From a bacterium (GTDB taxonomy: Bacteria > JAMCPX01): 15,627 nt of DNA. A model generated the notes under the pieces. That model was not told the DNA's origin. It searched no databases and worked only from the letters and a program-made list of their open reading frames with translations. Position numbers and translations under genes: made by a program. The stretch spans positions 1 through 15,627 of the forward strand of contig JAJYJX010000040.1 in NCBI GenBank assembly GCA_021789095.1. Direction: 5' to 3'. Shown here one piece after another: positions 4,221 to 14,841 of this stretch. How positions within the stretch are numbered: position 1 is the first letter of the stretch; every line of letters starts with the position of its first letter.

Positions 4221-4619
4221 TTACATGTCTTTCTCGTAGAATTCTATAAGCACACCGTTCGTTGATGATGGGTGTACGAATACTGCTTTGTTACCTTTAT
4301 AACCGGTGCGCGGCTTATCATCGATCAGCTTTATACCCGACGCCCCAAGGTACCGTATGAGTGCTTCTATATTATCAACCTCAAGGCATATGTGATGCAG
4401 TCCTTCGCCTCTTTTCTCCAAAAAACTTGCTACACCTGAAGCCTTATCAAGCGGTTTTACCAGCTCTATGTGTGCATTATCAAGTTCCATAACAGCTACT
4501 TCGACACCCTCTGCATCAATACGATGCCTCGATTTCAGAGGCACACCGAGTTTTTTACTGTATACAGACGCAGCCTGTTCCAGGTCCCTGACAACTATCG
4601 CGATATGATCAAGCTTCAT
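4221..4619 (-). CDS. mce: Methylmalonyl-CoA epimerase
   Basis: A 132-residue vicinal-oxygen-chelate protein, full length for the family. It interconverts (2R)- and (2S)-methylmalonyl-CoA in the propionate/succinate pathway. Two beta-alpha-beta-beta-beta modules are visible. They open with LDHIAIVVRDLEQA (residues 3-16) and GEGLHHICLEVDN (71-83), and the protein ends with GVLIEFYEK. The metal site expected from characterised epimerases maps to H5, E52, H75 or H76, and E126. The family often has Gln where E52 is. Glyoxalase I is the main alternative, but length and the GxGLHHI motif favour the epimerase. It is the last gene of the PTS operon, starts 11 bases inside the end of ptsI and has AAAGGAA about seven bases upstream. 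No methylmalonyl-CoA mutase is nearby, which is unusual. Confidence 0.88.
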   Translation of the reverse strand: MKLDHIAIVVRDLEQAASVYSKKLGVPLKSRHRIDAEGVEVAVMELDNAHIELVKPLDKASGVASFLEKRGEGLHHICLEVDNIEALIRYLGASGIKLIDDKPRTGYKGNKAVFVHPSSTNGVLIEFYEKDM

Positions 4620-6333
4620 CCTCGAGTTCCTTTGAATAAGTATTAATCAGCAGTTTTTCGACGTCTTCTGCTGAGGAGAGTTTCATTGCCTCCATTGCAA
4701 GCTTACGTGCATTCTCGCTGTTTATCCTTGTTATGGAGCGCCTTACTTTATTTATGATACCTATATTCATGCTCAATTCCGTAAAGCCCATGCCTATCAG
4801 GATTGGTATATAGAGCGGTACGCTTGCCATTTCGCCGCATATCTGTGCTGTCAGATTGTTCTTTTTTGCCTGTTCCGCTATGAGCATTAACACCCTTAAT
4901 ACCGCAGGATGCAACGGCTGGTACAGGTATGAAACGTCCTCGTCGCCGCGATCGATAGCCAGCATGTACTGGATGAGATCGTTTGTGCCTACACTGATAA
5001 AATCGAGCATACCCGACAGTGTGTCGACTATCATTGCAGCAGCAGGTGTTTCTATCAATGCGCCTAATTTTATCTTGCCTATGGCATAATTTTTGGATTT
5101 AAGGTCGGACTTTTCTTCCTCTATGATCCTTTTTGCCTCCTGCACCTCGCTCAATGACGAGATCATGGGCAGAAGTATCCTTATTTCGCCCATTGCGCTT
5201 GCCCGCAGTATGGCCCTTATCTGGGTCCTGAACAAAGGCTGATTTTTCAGGCAGACCCTTATGCCCCTCAGTCCCAGTGCAGGATTTTCAGACCTTTTGT
5301 AGATCGTTGAAAGTATCTTATCACCGCCCATGTCGAGCGTTCTTATGGTAACCTGTGATCCTGCGAATAATCTGGCAATAGTGGCATAATGCATATAACT
5401 TGTTTCTTCTGTTGGCAGCTCTTTCTTGCCTGTATAAAGATACTCCGTCCTTACAAGGCCTATACCCTCTGCACCTGCATTGAAAGCGGCCTCTGCCTCT
5501 TCCAGAAACTCCATATTCGCCATTATCCTTATATCGACGCCGTCCTTGGTTTTTACACCGTTTTTAACATCAGGCTGTGTACTCGGGATTGTGGTCTGAG
5601 GATGCGTACCCTGATATTTATTTATAGTTTCGAATTCTGGCTCAACTATTAAAATACCATTGTCCCCGTCAATAAGTATGTTCTGGCCGTCCCTTATCTT
5701 GTCAGAGATATTTCTTATTCCTGCTACAGCCGGCAGGCCCAATGAACGGGCAATAATGGCGGAATGGGATACAGGCCCCCCTGTCTCCAGCGCAAGACCT
5801 ATTATATTGTCTTTCATAAGGTAAGGTGTATTGGTCAGTGCAAAACTTGACAGTATGATTATACCGGGTTCCTCAATCCCGAATTTTTCCTCTTTTTCGA
5901 ATAGGTTTTTCAGGATTCTCTGGCCTTCATGTGCCACATCGAATTTTCTCTCCTTAAGATATTCGTCCTCAATCCTGTCAAAGGTCTTTTCTATCTCACT
6001 CAGTACCTCTGTTAAGGCCCATTCGGTGTTCACATAATTGTTCTTTATTCTGTTAATCACGCTCTCTATTAATGACTTGTCCTCGAGGATCATCATGTGC
6101 ATATCAAGAATGAGCAGTGCTTCTTTGCCGTGGACAGGATCGATCTTCTCTGTTATTGCCTTTATTTCTTCTTTTGATTTTTCTATGGCTGCGAGGAACC
6201 TGTTTATCTCCGCAGGTATTTTATCAGGCGTTATATGATAGCGGGATATGTCAAACACGCTGCTTATCGGCATGATTGCCCTGCCTACCGCCCAGCCAGG
6301 AGATATAGGAATGCCTTTAAGATAAACGGTCAT
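4609..6333 (-). CDS. ptsI: PTS Enzyme I (phosphoenolpyruvate-protein phosphotransferase)
   Basis: A 574-residue cytoplasmic enzyme, the usual length for Enzyme I. It takes phosphate from PEP onto a histidine and passes it to HPr. The phosphohistidine domain has GGPVSHSAIIARS with the active H190. The PEP-binding barrel shows RTEYLY (295-300), RTLDMGGDK (331-339), NPALGLRGIR (350-359), GTNDLIQYMLAIDR (449-462) and the C499 region ICGEMAS. The HPr-binding helical part lies around residues 20-145. All catalytic residues are present. It lies directly after ptsH with a 4-base ATGA overlap, as expected for stoichiometric partners. There is no GAF domain, so this is not the nitrogen-PTS form PtsP. 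Confidence 0.97.
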   Translation of the reverse strand: MTVYLKGIPISPGWAVGRAIMPISSVFDISRYHITPDKIPAEINRFLAAIEKSKEEIKAITEKIDPVHGKEALLILDMHMMILEDKSLIESVINRIKNNYVNTEWALTEVLSEIEKTFDRIEDEYLKERKFDVAHEGQRILKNLFEKEEKFGIEEPGIIILSSFALTNTPYLMKDNIIGLALETGGPVSHSAIIARSLGLPAVAGIRNISDKIRDGQNILIDGDNGILIVEPEFETINKYQGTHPQTTIPSTQPDVKNGVKTKDGVDIRIMANMEFLEEAEAAFNAGAEGIGLVRTEYLYTGKKELPTEETSYMHYATIARLFAGSQVTIRTLDMGGDKILSTIYKRSENPALGLRGIRVCLKNQPLFRTQIRAILRASAMGEIRILLPMISSLSEVQEAKRIIEEEKSDLKSKNYAIGKIKLGALIETPAAAMIVDTLSGMLDFISVGTNDLIQYMLAIDRGDEDVSYLYQPLHPAVLRVLMLIAEQAKKNNLTAQICGEMASVPLYIPILIGMGFTELSMNIGIINKVRRSITRINSENARKLAMEAMKLSSAEDVEKLLINTYSKELEDEA

Positions 6334-6599
6334 TGTTCTTCCCCGAATTTGCCCTCTATCAGTTTTTGCAGTGATGTCAACGCGCTGTCCTCATCTTTAC
6401 CTTTTGCGGTAATCTTTAATGCTGTGCCCTTTGCCGCTGCAAGGGTCAGGAGTCCGAGTATACTCTTGCCGTTTGCCCTTTCCCCGTTTTTATACACATA
6501 GATCTCGCACTCGTAGGAGTTAGCTACCTTTACAAACTGGGCAGCTGCCCGTGCATGAAACCCCAGCTTATTTATTATGACAAAACTGCCTTCTTTCAT
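6330..6599 (-). CDS. ptsH: PTS phosphocarrier protein HPr
   Basis: An 89-residue HPr. The EI-dependent phosphorylation site is H15 in LGFHARAAAQF (residues 12-22). The regulatory serine is S46 in NGKSILGL, the target of HprK in organisms that have the kinase, and hprK is in the same operon. The residue after HAR is Ala; many HPr proteins have Pro there. It overlaps the EIIA gene upstream and ptsI downstream by ATGA each, so the three phosphorelay proteins are translationally coupled. With no sugar permease component encoded here, its likely role is signalling through EIIA and through its Ser-phosphorylated form. Confidence 0.96.
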   Translation of the reverse strand: MKEGSFVIINKLGFHARAAAQFVKVANSYECEIYVYKNGERANGKSILGLLTLAAAKGTALKITAKGKDEDSALTSLQKLIEGKFGEEQ

Positions 6600-7003
6600 G
6601 GCTCTGTTTTATTCAGCACATCCCCTGCAAGGATAATGTTTTTTTTACCATACTCTTTTATCATATTTGCAAGCTCCCTGACAGGCATTTCTGTGTCCAT
6701 TGATGCCAGTTTTATCAGCATGGGCAGGTTTACCCCTGCGAGCACCTCTACCTGTCCTTCTCTCAGGAAGGAAAGGCTTATGTTTGAGGGGGTTCCTCCG
6801 AACATATCTGTCAGTATGAGAATCCCGTCGCCTTTATCAACCTTCTTTATGGCATTCGAGATCTCTTCCCTCAAGACTTCCACCTGTTGCTGCGGGTCGG
6901 TCATTACCGAGGTAATATAATCTTTTTTACCTACGATAAATTCGGTTGTTGCAAGCAATTCATTTGCAAACTGGCCGTGGGCAACTATAACAATACCGAT
7001 CAT
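6596..7003 (-). CDS. PTS mannose-family EIIA protein (stand-alone)
   Basis: A 135-residue EIIA of the mannose/sorbose family. The phospho-accepting histidine is H9 in IVAHGQFANELL, and the conserved LTDMFGGTPSN at 64-74 closes the active site with D66. It consists of the EIIA domain only; the E. coli ManX equivalent continues into an IIB domain. No IIB, IIC or IID gene is present, so it is unlikely to serve transport here and more likely acts as a phosphorylation-dependent regulator. Its target is unknown. The gene starts 3 bases after the rapZ stop. Stand-alone proteins of this type next to ptsH and ptsI are known from Deltaproteobacteria. Confidence 0.92.
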   Translation of the reverse strand: MIGIVIVAHGQFANELLATTEFIVGKKDYITSVMTDPQQQVEVLREEISNAIKKVDKGDGILILTDMFGGTPSNISLSFLREGQVEVLAGVNLPMLIKLASMDTEMPVRELANMIKEYGKKNIILAGDVLNKTEP

Positions 7004-7006
7004 TGC

Positions 7007-7882
7007 TCATTCCTTTTCAATGTCCCTGTGTCTGACAATCGGCGTATAGCCCAGGGCAGTTATAACGTTTTTAACCTCATCGACAATTGTCACCGATCTA
7101 TGCCTGCCTCCCGTACATCCGAATGATATGGTGAGATAGCTTTTACCTTCCGCATCGTAAAGCGGTACGGCAAATTCCATGAATCTTTTTATAATATCAA
7201 GGAACCTTGTTGTAACATCGTCGCCTTTAACATAATCAATTACACTTTTGTCAAGGCCTGTACAATGTTTTAATTCAGGCACAAAGTAAGGGTTCCTTAT
7301 AAATCGTACATCGAAGATAATATCTGAATCAACAGGGATCCCGAACCTGTATCCGAATGACTGCAGTATGATGGTCATTGATTTTGACTGTGTTGATTGC
7401 TGGACTAAAGACTTAAGTTCTTTTTTTAAGTCATGTACCGTAAAATTGGATGTGTCCAGTATGCGGTCCGCCTGGTTTTTTATCTCTTTCAGGTATTTCC
7501 TTTCAAGGGCAAATCCTTCTTCGATGGGCATGTCATGGGCGAGCGGGTGTTTCCTTCTTGTTTCGCTGTACCTTTTAAAAAGCACGCTGTCGTTTGAATC
7601 GAGGAAAATAATGGTGACCTTGTTCTTTGTGGCCTTAAGCGCCCTTAGTTCATCCGAAAGCCCTGTAAAGAAACCCCTGCCCCTCACATCTATGGAAAGG
7701 GCAATGTTCTTTATGTCTTCTTTTGAGTCTTTAATAATCTCAATAAATCTGGGTATAAGTTTGACAGGGATATTATCAATGCAGAAAAAGCCCATGTCTT
7801 CCAGTACAGCCATGGCAGTGGTTTTACCGGAACCGGACATGCCTGTCACAATGACCATATTCAATGGTTTTTTACTGTTCAT
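7007..7882 (-). CDS. rapZ: RapZ/YvcJ-family nucleotide-binding protein (RNase adapter family)
   Basis: A 291-residue protein, normal for the family. The N-terminal P-loop is GMSGSGKT at residues 14-21, followed by DMGFFCIDNIP. The C-terminal domain has the family signatures SFGYRFGIP, FDVRFIRNPY and SFGCTGGRHRSVT. E. coli RapZ binds small RNAs and guides RNase E to cleave them, controlling GlmS and amino-sugar supply. Gram-positive YvcJ hydrolyses nucleotides and affects competence. In this organism the RNA role is inference. Its place between hprK and the EIIA gene is the conserved PTS-linked location seen in many proteobacteria. The start lies 11 bases inside the end of hprK. Confidence 0.95.
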   Translation of the reverse strand: MNSKKPLNMVIVTGMSGSGKTTAMAVLEDMGFFCIDNIPVKLIPRFIEIIKDSKEDIKNIALSIDVRGRGFFTGLSDELRALKATKNKVTIIFLDSNDSVLFKRYSETRRKHPLAHDMPIEEGFALERKYLKEIKNQADRILDTSNFTVHDLKKELKSLVQQSTQSKSMTIILQSFGYRFGIPVDSDIIFDVRFIRNPYFVPELKHCTGLDKSVIDYVKGDDVTTRFLDIIKRFMEFAVPLYDAEGKSYLTISFGCTGGRHRSVTIVDEVKNVITALGYTPIVRHRDIEKE

Positions 7883-8450
7883 GTGTACTGTTTATCCTTT
7901 TTGCGATCCTCTGCTCAAGTTCTTTTGCTTCTTCTTTACCGCGCTTTTTCAAAAGGAAACTTGTTACCGCAACCTCGACGAGTGAAGCCATATTCCTTGC
8001 AGGCCTTACGGGAAGCTTGATCAGGGGCAGCTTCCTGCCGGTGATCTCATACGTATAAGGTTTTAAAAAACCCCTTATATGGCTTGATTCATCCCATTCG
8101 ATGAAATCTATGACCATGTCTATCTGTTTTTTGGGGCATAGAGCGCGCCTGCCAAAATGAGAACTGACCCTGATTACACCAAGACCGTGCAGTTCAAGAT
8201 ATCCGCTTATGAGAGGATCAGGCATGCCTACCAGTTTATCACGTTCAACGGATGTCACAACAAGATCATCCGCCACAAGCTTATGGCCTCTTATAATAAG
8301 CTCGAGCGCACACTCACTCTTCCCTATGCCACTCTTTCCGGTTATAAGGACGCCGACATTTTTTACAGATACAAGAACACCGTGTATCCGCGCTGAACCT
8401 TTTGTACTATTTAAATCTTGCACCGGTCTCAATGAGCCCGTAGTGGCCAT
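7872..8450 (-). CDS. hprK: HPr kinase/phosphorylase, catalytic domain only (short form)
   Basis: A 192-residue protein. Typical HprK has about 310 residues, with an N-terminal domain of about 130 that is missing here. The catalytic domain is complete. It shows IHGVLV with the conserved H23, the P-loop GKSGIGKS at 38-45, GHKLVADD with the Asp pair at 61-62, LELHGLGVIRV, and the C-terminal signature LPVRPARN followed by VEVAV. It phosphorylates HPr on Ser46 using ATP or PPi and reverses the reaction with Pi. The ATG at 8450 overlaps hpf by 44 bases and has AGAGAGG only two bases upstream. A GTG at 8423 is an alternative that would remove nine residues outside the conserved domain. Domain-only HprKs are known in Alphaproteobacteria, so this is likely functional. 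Confidence 0.9.
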   Translation of the reverse strand: MATTGSLRPVQDLNSTKGSARIHGVLVSVKNVGVLITGKSGIGKSECALELIIRGHKLVADDLVVTSVERDKLVGMPDPLISGYLELHGLGVIRVSSHFGRRALCPKKQIDMVIDFIEWDESSHIRGFLKPYTYEITGRKLPLIKLPVRPARNMASLVEVAVTSFLLKKRGKEEAKELEQRIAKRINSTHEQ

Positions 8451-8940
8451 CGCCTCTCTTGAACACTACATTTACTTTCTCATCACCTGCGTCGAGGTAA
8501 ACAATGAATGGGGTCCCGGACATGTCCAGCTGCAAGACAGCCTCCTCTGTGGTCATGGGTCTTACAAAGTAATCTGTTTCCGGTATTACCATGACCTCGT
8601 CGTTCTCCTCTTCAACTGCCGGCTGTGACAGATGTCTCATTGATGTAATGCCTGTATGCTTTTTCTTCTTTTCTTTCAGTTTCGTGAGCTGTTTATAGAG
8701 TTTATCATATATAAGATCAATAGCAGCGTACATATCTATGCCCTGCTCTTTGGCGTATAGCTCCTTTCCTGCAGATGTGACTGTAAGTTCAACCGTGTTT
8801 GCCTTTTTCTCCTGCGTAAAAATGATATGAACCTCGACAGGTTCTTTTAAGGATTTTGTTAACTTTGTGATTTTTTCTTCTGCGTATTGTTTTAAAGCAC
8901 TTGAAGAAGGGATATGTCTGAAGGTTATCTGAATGTTCAT
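8407..8940 (-). CDS. hpf: Ribosome hibernation promoting factor, long form
   Basis: A 177-residue protein with two domains. The N-terminal S30AE/RaiA-like domain (about 1-97: MNIQITFRHIPSS, YAAIDLIYDKLYKQL) binds the 30S subunit near the decoding centre. The C-terminal dimerisation domain (about 120-177: FVRPMTTEEAVLQLDMSG, FIVYLDAGDEKVNVVFKR) is the one that lets long HPF join two 70S ribosomes into 100S particles. A charged lysine-rich linker joins them. CAGGAGG lies about seven bases before the ATG, the strongest ribosome-binding site in this operon. It is the first gene of the operon. In many proteobacteria hpf follows rpoN; here the upstream neighbour is divergent glyQ. Confidence 0.94.
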   Translation of the reverse strand: MNIQITFRHIPSSSALKQYAEEKITKLTKSLKEPVEVHIIFTQEKKANTVELTVTSAGKELYAKEQGIDMYAAIDLIYDKLYKQLTKLKEKKKKHTGITSMRHLSQPAVEEENDEVMVIPETDYFVRPMTTEEAVLQLDMSGTPFIVYLDAGDEKVNVVFKRGDGHYGLIETGARFK

Positions 8941-9042: not shown

Positions 9043-9071
9043 TTGACAAATAACCCTGTTATGGCTACCAT
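9043..9071 (+). promoter_or_regulatory. Putative sigma-70-type promoter for glyQS-ppdK
   Basis: A perfect TTGACA at 9043-9048, a 17-base spacer and TACCAT at 9066-9071 form a promoter-like pair. The expected start point (about 9077-9079) is 3-5 bases before the ATG at 9082, which would give an almost leaderless glyQ message. It fits the absence of any Shine-Dalgarno sequence before the possible glyQ starts. Promoters further upstream in the 102-base spacer cannot be excluded. Confidence 0.4.
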
Positions 9072-9081
9072 GCCACGTGTT

Positions 9082-9939
9082 ATGAATGTTCAGGATGTAA
9101 TATTTACGCTTAACAGGTTCTGGGCAGACAGGGGATGCATAATAGACCAGCCTTATGATGTTGAAGTTGGTGCAGGCACATTCCATCCATCCACTTTTTT
9201 AAGGGTACTCGACCCGACACCATGGGCGGCAGCCTACGTCCAGCCTTCAAGGAGGCCTACCGACGGCAGGTATGGCGAAAATCCGAACAGGTTGCAGCGT
9301 TATTTCCAGTATCAAGTTATTATAAAGCCTTCTCCTCCTGACATACAAGACATATATCTTAAAAGCCTTGAGGCGCTTGGAATAAAGACAAAAAGCCACG
9401 ATATAAGGTTTGTGGAGGATGACTGGGAGTCACCGACACTCGGCGCATGGGGACTGGGATGGGAAGTCTGGCTTGACGGCATGGAGATCACCCAGTTTAC
9501 CTACTTCCAGCAGGCAGGAGGCTTTGACCTGAAGCCTGTTCCGGTCGAGATTACATACGGCATAGAACGCATCTCAATGTACCTGCAGGGCGTTGAGGAT
9601 GTGTTTGAACTGCAATGGAATAATAAGGTCAGGTACGGACAGTTGTTTAAAGAGAACGAGCGTCAGAACTCGGTGTATAACTTTGAGTCCGCGGACATAA
9701 ACAGGCTGCTCTTGCTGTTCGACGAGTACGAGCAGGAATCCGGCAGGCTTATCAAGGATGGATTGTACCTGCCGGCTTATGATTTGACCCTTCGGTGTTC
9801 ACACGTCTTTAATCTTCTTGATGCAAGGCGTGCCATATCCGTATCTGAAAGGGCAAGGTACATCGGAAGGGTAAGAGCAATGGCAAAGGGCATTGCACAG
9901 GGATATAGAGAAACTCAAAACTCAGAATCCAGGGGTTAA
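9082..9939 (+). CDS. glyQ: Glycyl-tRNA synthetase alpha subunit
   Basis: A 285-residue class II synthetase subunit that, with GlyS, charges tRNA-Gly. Highly conserved blocks are [20 protein letters not shown] (residues 49-68), [42 protein letters not shown] and [11 protein letters not shown]. Near the C-terminus are [15 protein letters not shown] and a basic helix. I chose the ATG at 9082 because its [14 protein letters not shown] aligns with the usual N-terminus of deltaproteobacterial GlyQ. ATGs at 9061 and 9073 and a TTG at 9043 would add up to 13 residues. None of the starts has a good ribosome-binding site. It is followed after 16 bases by glyS. No T-box leader fits in the spacer. Confidence 0.95.
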
Positions 9940-9955
9940 ATGGTGTAAGTTGAAT

Positions 9956-12049
9956 ATGGCGGAACTTTTTATAGAAATTGGTGTTGAAGAGATGCCGGTC
10001 GCAGAGATAAATCCTGCGATAGAACATCTTTCAAATACATTATCCGTGCTTTTTAAAAATGATGGCATCAATTTTGACAGCTGTGAGACATATTCTGCAC
10101 CAAGGAGGCTGGCAGTATGTTTTAAGGGGCTTTCGGATAAAGGCAAGCCGGACATCACTACATATACGGGACCAAGAAAAGAGGCTGCATTTGATAAAAA
10201 TGGGAACCCCACACAGGCTGCTATCGGTTTTGCCCGCTCAAAGGGTGTGGATGTCAAATCTCTGAAGGTTGTTAAGCTTGATAAAGGCGAGTTCGTGCAG
10301 GTTGAAATTAAAAAGCAGGGTGTTTTAACAAAAAACCTTGTAAAGCAAAAGCTGGCCGGTGTGATCCTCGGAATACCATTCAGGAAATCGATGAGATGGG
10401 ACAGCGAAAGTATAAGATTCATCAGACCTATACGGTGGCTTGTCGTGCTTTACAACGGCAAAATTGTTCCTATAACAATCGGTGATGTAAAGGCATCGGC
10501 ATACACGTATGGATTAAGAACCGGCGGCGTAAAAAGGATAAAAGTCACGGGTTTTGACTCGTGCATCCGCACAATGAAAAAGGGGAAGATCCTGCCGGGA
10601 TTTGATGCAAGAAGAGAAAGTATCAAGAAACAGGCAGATAATTTCATAAAAAAGGTTCATGGAAAAGCTGCGGCAGATATTGAGCTTCTTGATACTATTG
10701 CAAATCTCACGGAATCTCCTTCAGCCATAATGGGCAAATTCGACAAAAGGTTCATGAACCTGCCCGAAGAGGTCATCATGAGCGTTATGAAGACCCAGCA
10801 GAAATACATTCCTGTTGTTGATAAGAAGAGTGCATTGATGCCGTATTTTATAGGCATAAGCAACAATCCTTATGGTGATAAGACCGTTATCAGAAAGGGG
10901 TATGCGCGGGTGCTCAGAGCAAGGCTTGAGGACGCTGAATTCTACTATCATCAGGATATAAAACAGCCGCTTGAAGCATACATAGACCTGCTGAAGGGCA
11001 TGGTCTATAACCCTGCACTTGGCAGTCTTTATGACAAAACACAGCGTATCAGGGCAGTCTCTTCTTTTATTGCCGATACGATCAATACCAATGAGCAGAC
11101 ACGGGCGACAATATTGAAGGCAGCAGAGCTATGCAAGGCAGACCTTTCAACAAGGCTTGTTTCAGAGTTCCCGGAGCTTCAAGGGATCATAGGCAGACAT
11201 TATATACAATTAAAGGATCCAGCATTTAAACCTGTTGCAGCTGCTGTTTATGAGCACAGCAGCAAAGAGATACCTCAAACACTGCCAGGCTCTGTTGTTT
11301 CTATAGCAGATAAGATAGATACGCTTACCGGTTTTTTCAGCATAGGTGAGATACCGACAGGCACACAGGACCCATACGGTTTAAGAAGGGCAGCAATCGG
11401 TATTATCAATGTTGTACTGAACGGACGTATTGAATTAGACGTCAGGGAACTTATAAAATTCAACATGGATCAATACAAACAAATCACGGTTAAAAAGGTG
11501 CTGGGAGGGCAGGTGCTGGATTACATTTACGGGAGGCTGGTAGGCATATTAAGGGAAAGGCATTACACGGAGTTATCACTGGAAGCAGCAATTCAATCAA
11601 AGGCCAACCCTATAGACATGCTCATAAATGCGGTAATAGCGGCCGGACCCGGGAATATAGTGGACATTGATGAAAAGATTAATGCGTTTAAAGATGTATT
11701 ATTCAAACCCGGCTTTGAACCGGTTTTTCTTGCCTTTAAAAGGGTTATAAATATCTCAAAAAACCACAGTGCAGGGGAGGTTAATGTGGAAATGCTTATG
11801 GAACCATCAGAAAAGGCTTTATATGACAGATGGTTAGCAGTGGAGCCTGAGGTTCAGTCAGCACTTGCAAAAAGGGATTATATTGGGTATATAAAATCGC
11901 TTAAAAAAATTGTTCCCGAGATAAACACATTTTTTGATAAGGTGCTTGTAATGAGCGATGATGAAAATATAAGGAATAATAGATTGAACCTGCTTGCAAA
12001 GATCAAATATCTCACTGCGCAGGTCATGGATATAACAAAATTGATATAG
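9956..12049 (+). CDS. glyS: Glycyl-tRNA synthetase beta subunit
   Basis: A 697-residue protein, close to the 689 of E. coli GlyS. The N-terminus MAELFIEIGVEEMP is the canonical start. Internal signatures include APRRLAV, PIRWLVVLYNG, VSEFPELQGIIGRHY and IADKIDTLTGFFSIGEIPTG, and then QDPYGLRRAAIGI of the HD-like domain. The C-terminal region of about 120 residues is the helical anticodon-binding domain. The beta subunit binds tRNA and completes the alpha2beta2 enzyme. The ATG at 9956 matches the conserved N-terminus; the open frame extends back to 9893 into glyQ, but that part has no family similarity. It ends 8 bases before ppdK. Confidence 0.95.
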   Translation: MAELFIEIGVEEMPVAEINPAIEHLSNTLSVLFKNDGINFDSCETYSAPRRLAVCFKGLSDKGKPDITTYTGPRKEAAFDKNGNPTQAAIGFARSKGVDVKSLKVVKLDKGEFVQVEIKKQGVLTKNLVKQKLAGVILGIPFRKSMRWDSESIRFIRPIRWLVVLYNGKIVPITIGDVKASAYTYGLRTGGVKRIKVTGFDSCIRTMKKGKILPGFDARRESIKKQADNFIKKVHGKAAADIELLDTIANLTESPSAIMGKFDKRFMNLPEEVIMSVMKTQQKYIPVVDKKSALMPYFIGISNNPYGDKTVIRKGYARVLRARLEDAEFYYHQDIKQPLEAYIDLLKGMVYNPALGSLYDKTQRIRAVSSFIADTINTNEQTRATILKAAELCKADLSTRLVSEFPELQGIIGRHYIQLKDPAFKPVAAAVYEHSSKEIPQTLPGSVVSIADKIDTLTGFFSIGEIPTGTQDPYGLRRAAIGIINVVLNGRIELDVRELIKFNMDQYKQITVKKVLGGQVLDYIYGRLVGILRERHYTELSLEAAIQSKANPIDMLINAVIAAGPGNIVDIDEKINAFKDVLFKPGFEPVFLAFKRVINISKNHSAGEVNVEMLMEPSEKALYDRWLAVEPEVQSALAKRDYIGYIKSLKKIVPEINTFFDKVLVMSDDENIRNNRLNLLAKIKYLTAQVMDITKLI

Positions 12050-12057
12050 GGGGTTTT

Positions 12058-14841
12058 ATGAAAGCAAAGCGGATTTACTTTTTTGCAAAAGGCCGGGCTG
12101 ACGGCACAGGAGATATGAAAGACCTGCTCGGCGGCAAGGGTGCAGGGCTTGCCGAGATGACAAGGGCGGGCATACCCGTACCACCTGGTTTTACAATCCC
12201 TACAACAATGTGTCTTGAATATTTCAAAAAAGGTTTAAGATTTCCCCAGGGTTTGAGAGAGGACGTAAAAAAATCCATAAAAAGGCTCGAATCCGTTACA
12301 GGCAAAGGCTTTGGCAGTAAAGAAAATCCTTTGCTTGTGTCAGTGCGTTCCGGCGCAAAGTTCTCTATGCCGGGCATGATGGACACAATACTTAACCTCG
12401 GTCTTAATGATCAGACTGTTGGCGGGCTTGCAGACAAGACCGGGAACCAGAGGTTTGCCTACGACAGCTACAGAAGGTTCATGTATATGTTCGGCGATGT
12501 CGTTCTCGGGATAGGCAAAAAGGTATTTGAAGAGATCTTTGAAGGATATAAGAAGAAGTTCAATGCAAAGGACGACACGTCTGTTCCACATGCTGCATTG
12601 AAGTCCGTTGTGGAAGATTTCAAGAACATCATCAAATCAAAAACAAAAAAGGAATTTCCCCAGGACCCTTATCAGCAGTTATTCATGGCAATAGAGGCTG
12701 TCTTTAAATCATGGAACAACGACAGGGCAATATATTACAGAAAACAAAACAATATACCCGAGAACCTCGGCACTGGTGTAAACGTCCAGACAATGGTGTT
12801 CGGCAATGCGGGAGATGATTCTGCAACGGGTGTTGGTTTTACACGCAACCCGGCAACTGGCCAGAAGGTGTTCTACGGCGAGTACCTTACCAATGCCCAG
12901 GGCGAAGATGTTGTAGCAGGGATAAGGACGCCAAAGCAGATATCAGAACTTGCAAAGGAGATGCCGGGTGTATACAGGCAGTTGCAGAGCATCACAACCA
13001 GGCTTGAAAAACATTACAGGGACGTGCAGGACTTTGAATTTACCATTGAAAACGGCAAGCTTTACATGCTTCAGACAAGAACAGGCAAAAGAACGCCGCA
13101 GGCAGCTTTAAAAATAGCGGTTGATCTTGTGAAAGAGAGACTTATTACCAAAGAGCAGGCTATAGCGAGGATAGAGCCAGATAAGCTTGAACAGCTTCTG
13201 CATCCTGTATTTGATCCAAAAGTGAAGTATGAGGTCTCTGCAAAAGGGCTTGCAGCATCGCCAGGCGCTGCATCCGGCATTGTCGTACTTGATGCAAACA
13301 AGGCTGTTGAGCTTTCCCAGAAGAGCGAAGCGGTTATACTGTTAAGGGAGGAGACATCACCTGATGATATCCACGGCATGGATGCATCAAAGGGCATCCT
13401 TACAAGGCGTGGCGGAATGACATCGCATGCTGCTGTTGTTGCAAGGCAGTACGGGAAACCCGCTGTTGTCGGATGTGAGGCCCTGGAAATAGATGAAAAG
13501 ACACGGTCGGTAAAGATAGGAAATAAGCTGCTGAAGGAAGGCGATCATATATCAATAAACGGAACAACGGGCGATGTAATAATAGGCAAGGTGCCGTTTG
13601 TCGATCCTGATCTTACGGGTGATTTTAAAACAATCATGACGTGGTCAGACAATATAAGAAGGCTTGGCGTAAGGGCCAATGCGGATACACCAAGGGATGC
13701 AATGAGGGCAAGATCGTTTGGAGCACAGGGCATAGGCCTTTGCAGGACGGAGCACATGTTTTTTGCCGAGGACAGGATAGGGATAATGCAGAAGATGATC
13801 CTGGCGGAAACAAGGGAGGAGAGGCTGAAGTTCCTTGATATGCTCCTTGTCATGCAGAGGCAGGACTTTACAGGTATATTGAAGGAGATGCACGGACTTC
13901 CTGTAACAATACGGCTCCTCGATCCGCCGCTCCACGAGTTCCTTCCCAAAAGGGAAGAACTGATGGTTGAGATAACGAAGCTCGAGTTCAATGGCTTGAA
14001 TCCGGGTGAGCTGGCTGAAAAGAAGAAACTGCTTGCAAGGGTGGAGGAACTGCATGAGTTTAACCCTATGCTTGGGTTAAGGGGTGCAAGGCTCGGCATA
14101 ATAATGCCGGACATAACCAGAATGCAGGTAAGGGGGATAATAGAAGCAGCGTGCGACCTGTCGGACAAGGGCATAAAGGTTTATCCGGAGATCATGCTGC
14201 CTGTCATAAGCATGGAAGAGGAGATGCATGCTCAGAAGGCGATTGTCATTCAAACAGCCAATGAGGTTATGAAGCAGAAAAACAAGAAGATCAAATTCCT
14301 TGTAGGTACGATGATAGAGCTGCCAAGGGCAGCTATTACCGCTGATGAGATTGCGCGGGAGGCGGAGTTCTTCTCCTTCGGTACGAATGACCTTACCCAG
14401 ACCACTTACGGTTTTTCAAGGGATGATGCAGGCAGGTTTATAAGCTTCTACAGATCATACTCTGAACATTGTCCTGTCTGTGGCGGCAGGCTTAATAAGG
14501 ACGGCATATGCGAGGTATGCGGCTATAAGGTGCCTGTAAAACCGCAGAATATACTCTCATTTGATCCGTTTGCGACCATAGATGTAAAAGGGGTAGGGGA
14601 GCTCGTTAAAATAGCGGTTGAAAAGGGCAGAAAAACAAGGCCCGATATAAAACTCGGTATATGCGGTGAACACGGAGGCGATCCCATGACCGTCCGTTTC
14701 TGTCATGATGTAGGTCTGACATATGTAAGCTGTTCGCCGTACAGGTTACCGGTTGCAAGACTTGCTGCAGCACAGGCTTCGCTGAGTGCAAAGGCAGCAA
14801 CCGCCGTTAGAAAGAGCAGGATTTTAAGCCGTTCCCGCTAA
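12058..14841 (+). CDS. ppdK: Pyruvate, phosphate dikinase with a four-cysteine zinc-ribbon-like insertion
   Basis: A 927-residue enzyme; characterised bacterial forms are near 875. It interconverts pyruvate + ATP + Pi with PEP + AMP + PPi. The N-terminal ATP-grasp domain shows GGKGAGLAEM, SVRSGAKFSMPGMMDT, TGVGFTRNP and QTRTGKRTPQ. The swivelling phosphohistidine domain has GGMTSHAAVVAR with catalytic H457 and neighbouring T455, the regulatory position in plants. The C-terminal PEP/pyruvate barrel has GLCRTEHMF, LGLRGARLG, FGTNDLTQTTYGFSRDDAG and GICGEHGGDP with catalytic C869. Between FSRDDAG and DPF there are 43 residues where the Clostridium symbiosum enzyme has about 14; the extra stretch carries C805-P-V-C808 and C818-E-V-C821. 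The C-terminus also has a short basic tail. AGGGGG lies four bases before the ATG, the best ribosome-binding site on the plus strand. It is the last gene of the glyQS unit. Confidence 0.96.
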   Translation: MKAKRIYFFAKGRADGTGDMKDLLGGKGAGLAEMTRAGIPVPPGFTIPTTMCLEYFKKGLRFPQGLREDVKKSIKRLESVTGKGFGSKENPLLVSVRSGAKFSMPGMMDTILNLGLNDQTVGGLADKTGNQRFAYDSYRRFMYMFGDVVLGIGKKVFEEIFEGYKKKFNAKDDTSVPHAALKSVVEDFKNIIKSKTKKEFPQDPYQQLFMAIEAVFKSWNNDRAIYYRKQNNIPENLGTGVNVQTMVFGNAGDDSATGVGFTRNPATGQKVFYGEYLTNAQGEDVVAGIRTPKQISELAKEMPGVYRQLQSITTRLEKHYRDVQDFEFTIENGKLYMLQTRTGKRTPQAALKIAVDLVKERLITKEQAIARIEPDKLEQLLHPVFDPKVKYEVSAKGLAASPGAASGIVVLDANKAVELSQKSEAVILLREETSPDDIHGMDASKGILTRRGGMTSHAAVVARQYGKPAVVGCEALEIDEKTRSVKIGNKLLKEGDHISINGTTGDVIIGKVPFVDPDLTGDFKTIMTWSDNIRRLGVRANADTPRDAMRARSFGAQGIGLCRTEHMFFAEDRIGIMQKMILAETREERLKFLDMLLVMQRQDFTGILKEMHGLPVTIRLLDPPLHEFLPKREELMVEITKLEFNGLNPGELAEKKKLLARVEELHEFNPMLGLRGARLGIIMPDITRMQVRGIIEAACDLSDKGIKVYPEIMLPVISMEEEMHAQKAIVIQTANEVMKQKNKKIKFLVGTMIELPRAAITADEIAREAEFFSFGTNDLTQTTYGFSRDDAGRFISFYRSYSEHCPVCGGRLNKDGICEVCGYKVPVKPQNILSFDPFATIDVKGVGELVKIAVEKGRKTRPDIKLGICGEHGGDPMTVRFCHDVGLTYVSCSPYRLPVARLAAAQASLSAKAATAVRKSRILSRSR
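14470..14520 (+). other. Zinc-ribbon-like CxxC-x9-CxxC insertion encoded within ppdK
   Basis: Codons 805-821 encode CPVCGG, nine residues between the inner cysteines, then CEVC followed by Gly-Tyr. Two CxxCG knuckles at this spacing are the typical layout of a small zinc ribbon. The segment falls in the loop after the GTND strand of the catalytic barrel and before the conserved GVGELVKIAVEKGRKTRPD helix, close to where the catalytic C869 strand follows. Reading frame and codon use are continuous, so it is part of the protein. Metal binding is inference. Confidence 0.8.

Follow-up and report, generated by a model that had tools for sequence, protein, structure and literature searches.

A conserved putative zinc ribbon inserted in the PEP/pyruvate barrel of a subfamily of pyruvate phosphate dikinases

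Pyruvate phosphate dikinase (PPDK) determines which way carbon flows between pyruvate and phosphoenolpyruvate (PEP), and it is a textbook example of a swivelling-domain enzyme, of which only the dimer is active. The closest described relatives of the protein reported here are PpdK enzymes of TIGR01828 with solved structures, namely those of Clostridium symbiosum (1KBL/1DIK), maize (1VBG) and Trypanosoma brucei (2X0S), with which it shares its full length, the catalytic residues and the three-domain fold. PTS enzyme I and PEP synthase belong to the same PEP-utiliser family and have a PEP/pyruvate-binding barrel homologous to that of our PPDK; we know of no four-cysteine ribbon at the equivalent loop of either. 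The window (the whole stretch of DNA analysed, 15,627 nucleotides) encodes a PPDK with an insert in this barrel, and the features concerned are as follows.

12058 to 14841, + strand: ppdK, pyruvate phosphate dikinase with the ribbon insert, 927 amino acids (TIGR01828 equivalog; catalytic residues; PDB chains of PPDK at E of about 1e-300)
14458 to 14544, + strand: inserted stretch, about residues 801-829, in the β7-α7 loop of the C-terminal barrel (no alignment with solved PPDKs at 799-832; loop length; model)
14470 to 14481, + strand: first knuckle, C805-P-V-C808, both Cys invariant in 44 distinct inserts
14509 to 14520, + strand: second knuckle, C818-E-V-C821, both Cys invariant in 44 distinct inserts

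Apart from the insert, the window PPDK resembles the classic enzyme throughout. It scores 1330.7 bits against the TIGR01828 profile (cut-off 843.45, whole protein), and the solved PPDK chains match it at about 1000 bits with 51-53% identity over about 840-860 aligned residues. An earlier note on this DNA had described an otherwise canonical PpdK with all catalytic residues, and this proved correct: every position checked (in C. symbiosum numbering K22, R92, D321, E323, Q335, R337, T453, H455, R561, R617, E745, N768, D769 and C831), covering the ATP site, phospho-His455 and the PEP/pyruvate site including Cys831, is retained. The same residues are present in 31 other ribbon PPDKs, apart from a few gaps and single substitutions. 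The AlphaFold model of the full-length protein has a mean pLDDT of 87.2 and superposes on 1KBL with a Z of 44.3 and an rmsd of 5.3 over 853 residues, showing the three domains of the solved enzymes. The best explanation is that the window protein would be an active-type PPDK (pyruvate + ATP + Pi <-> PEP + AMP + PPi).

The 29-residue Cys4 insert is absent from both the solved PPDKs and the TIGR01828 profile, the match to which is interrupted at residues 799-832; these residues have no counterpart in the solved structures, and the sequence match of solved enzyme I chains stops ahead of the insert. The gap between the conserved Tyr798 and Asp836 is 37 residues in the window PPDK versus 8 in plain relatives (+29), in agreement with the excess over the C. 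symbiosum loop, carrying C805xxC808-x9-C818xxC821, that had been noticed earlier. The ribbon core reads C805-P-V-C808-G-G-R-L-N-K-D-G-I-C818-E-V-C821, and the four Cys codons (C805 at 14470-14472, C808 at 14479-14481, C818 at 14509-14511 and C821 at 14518-14520) all lie within 14431-14570. In barrels of this type, the β-to-α loops form the catalytic face. The AlphaFold model places the insert between strand 771-775 (SFGTND, β7 of the PEP/pyruvate barrel) and helix 846-860 (α7), which supports the earlier view that it sits in the catalytic barrel, close to the PEP/pyruvate site. The insert-bearing loop opens with an invariant SRDD motif, and the ribbon follows about 15-30 residues after it.

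A CxxC-x5..15-CxxC pattern arose in 1 of 20,000 shuffles of the window PPDK, although the invariance of the cysteines across the clade is stronger evidence against chance than this test. Ribbon PPDKs were found in all nine genomes of the window's phylum, and the insert is therefore not an assembly artefact; together with the 44 distinct inserts, this rules out both a chance origin and an assembly error.

All four cysteines are invariant in these 44 inserts from several phyla (35, plus 9 further ones from the Nitrospirota-type phylum of genome G394), and each of the four sites is encoded by TGT in some inserts and by TGC in others. The 35 inserts are 36-93% identical to that of the window, the remainder of the insert drifting to about 40%. 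The best matches, albeit weak ones, are Pfam zinc-ribbon models, with DZR_2 matching 30 and DZR 28 of the 35 members. The window insert itself stays below the gathering cut-offs, at 19.1 versus 27.3 bits for DZR (PF12773), 18.5 versus 27 in a second zinc-ribbon comparison, and 17.9 versus 26.5 bits for the rubredoxin-like RUBY_RBDX model; because the zinc-ribbon scores fall under the curated cut-offs, we do not file it in the double-zinc-ribbon families. It resembles DZR, DZR_2 (PF18912) and PF13248 in its CxxC pairs, short spacer and predicted hairpin, with weak matches in most members, but differs from them as a single ribbon lying inside an enzyme domain and scoring below cut-off.

The insert has a pLDDT of about 73-82 in the full-length AlphaFold run and 81 over its core when folded alone with homologues. 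Both runs agree, at moderate confidence, on a bridge at 804/824 and on a hairpin at 811-812/817-818 with a CxxC knuckle on either side. This predicted strand pairing would put both knuckles at one end of the hairpin, the arrangement of a ribbon, with moderate pLDDT and no significant fold match. With the insert alone, the top of the Foldseek list consisted mostly of zinc-binding proteins, none of them significant (E>1); a PDB profile search likewise gave weak matches, mostly to zinc proteins, and VIA-align was uninformative (best Z 2.3). The Foldseek list included NADH pyrophosphatase NudC (2GB5) and methionyl-tRNA synthetase (5URB), in which Cys4 knuckles are built into an enzyme, and which offer a working analogy although they are other enzymes with other sites, matched at E>1. 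Most likely, the four cysteines hold one structural zinc, forming a Zn(Cys)4 ribbon at the edge of the PEP/pyruvate site; the earlier reading of the insert as one of zinc-ribbon type is supported.

The ribbon is confined to a minority of PPDKs. In a broad draw of 386 genomes, it was present only in the window family (9 genomes), in G022 and in G158/G296, while about 155 other genomes gave a plain PPDK match. A widespread occurrence in PPDK is thus ruled out (3 of about 377 unrelated genomes), and so is an insert private to the window genome, as it is present across a PPDK subfamily in several phyla. Sampling of two further phyla found the ribbon in 3 of 79 genomes (phylum of G388) and 10 of 245 (phylum of G394, the record of which is titled Nitrospira sp.). 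Within the class of G388, it is intact in 24 of 26 genomes, lies across a frame break in one (L171) and could not be judged in one. The named members of this class are mostly "Deltaproteobacteria bacterium" MAGs, including CSP1-8, and we suspect that it is the MBNT15/Deferrimicrobia lineage (cf. PMC9386147). A scan of 84,980 species genomes for the exact DNA pattern returned 24 records, which is an undercount as it required a fixed distance and a Gly after the second Cys; for this reason it missed most Nitrospirota x11 ribbons. The plasmid collection gave no match. The earlier expectation of novelty holds in part: the insert is not in most PPDK clades and is undescribed in the sources searched, but it is not confined to this genome. 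No paper on a PPDK ribbon was found in the open-access literature, subscription journals lying outside the search, and the insert appears to be undescribed. Two records deserve comment. In L171 (G486), the reading frame is broken where the ribbon begins, with the remainder of it in a different frame, probably through an assembly error. The PPDK of L054 (JAENIX010000036.1), on a contig titled Actinomycetota, is nearly identical to that of L053 from an unclassified MAG, so that the contig is likely mis-named or mis-binned.

In PPDK trees built without the insert residues, the ribbons with an x9 spacer (window phylum, the one-genome phylum of G022 and the class of G388) form one clade (support 100/99), and those with an x11 spacer (the two-genome phylum of G158/G296 and the Nitrospirota-type genomes) fall in another, related clade. 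A larger clade (support 99/96) unites the two with a few plain PPDKs. A single clade of all ribbon PPDKs was rejected by the AU test (p 2.6e-14 and 1.2e-69), which does not exclude a single gain followed by losses. L104 of G394, a plain yet intact PPDK, branches within the x11 clade and has probably lost its ribbon. Two gains with one loss, and one old gain with three losses, fit about equally. We favour a single origin, to which the identical site, the identical spacing between SRDD and the first Cys, and the N-I-L (N831) that all share behind the ribbon would point. Judged from sequences, the ribbon is an ancient trait, fixed in a PPDK subfamily that spans several phyla.

Some genomes have two PPDKs. 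G394 holds both a ribbon PPDK (L098; x11, long branch, away from glyS) and the ribbon-less L104 near glyQS. Several genomes of the class of G388 carry a second, ribbon-less paralogue (L100, L101, L105-L108, L173 and L174) in a long-branched clade of its own, in which GEHGGDP is changed to GEQVDP and CSP to GSP, with the His455 and Cys831 equivalents kept; its function has possibly changed. As the active-site motif of this plain copy has drifted, these genomes likely rely mainly on the ribbon copy.

Upstream of ppdK lie the genes for glycyl-tRNA synthetase:

9043 to 9939, + strand: glyQ, upstream neighbour (NCBIfam PRK09348/TIGR00388; synteny)
9893 to 12049, + strand: glyS, immediately upstream of ppdK (TIGR00211, 699.9 bits; synteny)

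The listed start of glyS overlaps glyQ, and its true start is probably further down. The order glyQ-glyS-ppdK with a ribbon ppdK recurs in other phyla (G002, G022, G387, G390 and G397). As the plain ppdK of G394 shares this linkage to glyS, the gene order says little about the role of the ribbon. Pyruvate kinase (PF00224) is encoded in 9 of 15 ribbon genomes, among them the window's own (G000); PPDK therefore probably runs towards PEP in this organism. Elsewhere in the window (4221-8940, - strand) there is a compact set of genes for HPF, HprK, RapZ, EIIA-Man, HPr, enzyme I and methylmalonyl-CoA epimerase; this HprK is short (192 aa, C-terminal part only), and the PTS parts, being without sugar permeases in the window, are probably regulatory.

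PPDK forms dimers through the PEP/pyruvate-binding domains, on which the central domain docks after a swing of about 45 Å (PMC5556012). We lean, with moderate confidence, towards the ribbon being a structural clamp that would brace the β7-α7 loop and a dimer or phosphohistidine-domain contact in an active-type PPDK. On this proposal: the ribbon would fold on its own into a hairpin at the edge of the catalytic face, after the SRDD motif; one structural zinc would pin the hairpin via the four cysteines; and the rigid clamp would fix the loop and aid a contact, either barrel to barrel in the dimer or, on docking, with the mobile phosphohistidine domain, while the ribbon would take no part in the chemistry. 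Outside the insert and its flanks, the positions characteristic of the ribbon clades partly cluster at 718-725 in the β5-α5 loop, again on the catalytic face. Their nearness to the ribbon face is suggestive only, and the cluster may reflect shared ancestry instead of contact. Against the clamp, a stabilising role leaves unexplained why the ribbon is missing from most PPDKs, even in related lineages.

The ribbon might instead be a regulatory switch that senses zinc or the thiol redox state in place of PDRP phosphorylation, the control of PPDK known from other bacteria and plants; loss of the metal or oxidation of the cysteines would loosen the loop and turn the enzyme down. Consistent with this, the insert adjoins an active-site loop in the model, and PF03618, the known PPDK regulator family, was found in none of the 15 ribbon genomes tested, leaving room for another control. 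However, PF03618 was also absent from 11 of the 14 control genomes (present in 3), so that its absence is hardly informative, Zn(Cys)4 ribbons are usually structural, and no redox partner gene is evidently linked to the ribbon ppdK. We therefore consider a switch unlikely. Its broader form, a metal- or thiol-controlled PPDK subfamily in which the rim ribbon would gate phosphohistidine-domain docking or the dimer, and zinc or redox state would set PEP synthesis in lineages without the known regulator, seems rather improbable to us.

Binding to proteins or nucleic acid is common among zinc ribbons, and the insert might also be a docking module that recruits a partner, for example an enzyme of PEP metabolism or the translation machinery. 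The adjacency of ribbon ppdK to glyQS in several phyla would fit this, as would the short Lys/Arg-rich tails in which ribbon PPDKs end (a mean of 4.5 K/R in the last 10 residues versus 2.5 in plain ones; 14782-14838 in the window). However, the linkage to glyS is shared by the plain PPDK of G394, and the ribbon surface varies strongly between groups, unlike a conserved docking face; docking is thus an unlikely role. Another view is that the ribbon is an old, tolerated insertion of nearly neutral effect, its cysteines being kept only so that it folds without disturbing the barrel. Most PPDKs work without a ribbon, and L104 indicates that the module can be lost, but its retention over long branches in 9/9 genomes of the window phylum and 25/26 of the large class, when neutral loss would be easy, makes this explanation improbable. 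Finally, a rubredoxin-like Fe(Cys)4 site, electron-active or mis-metallated in iron-rich habitats, is highly improbable despite the CxxCG-type knuckles on both sides in the window group and weak RUBY_RBDX matches in 12/35 members, as the Gly is lost after the second knuckle in most of the Deltaproteobacteria-type group and after the first in many Nitrospirota, the rubredoxin aromatic core is not seen in the inserts, and the PPDK reaction has no redox step.

Ribbon PPDK is a variant of the classic enzyme and not a new system. On the sequences compared, the ribbon is real and conserved and occurs in only part of the PPDK family; as a structural variation it is modest but clean, and it marks a subfamily that current annotation does not distinguish. 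A conserved, putative metal module in the PPDK barrel, probably lost at least once and absent from the solved structures, amounts to a natural experiment on this loop.
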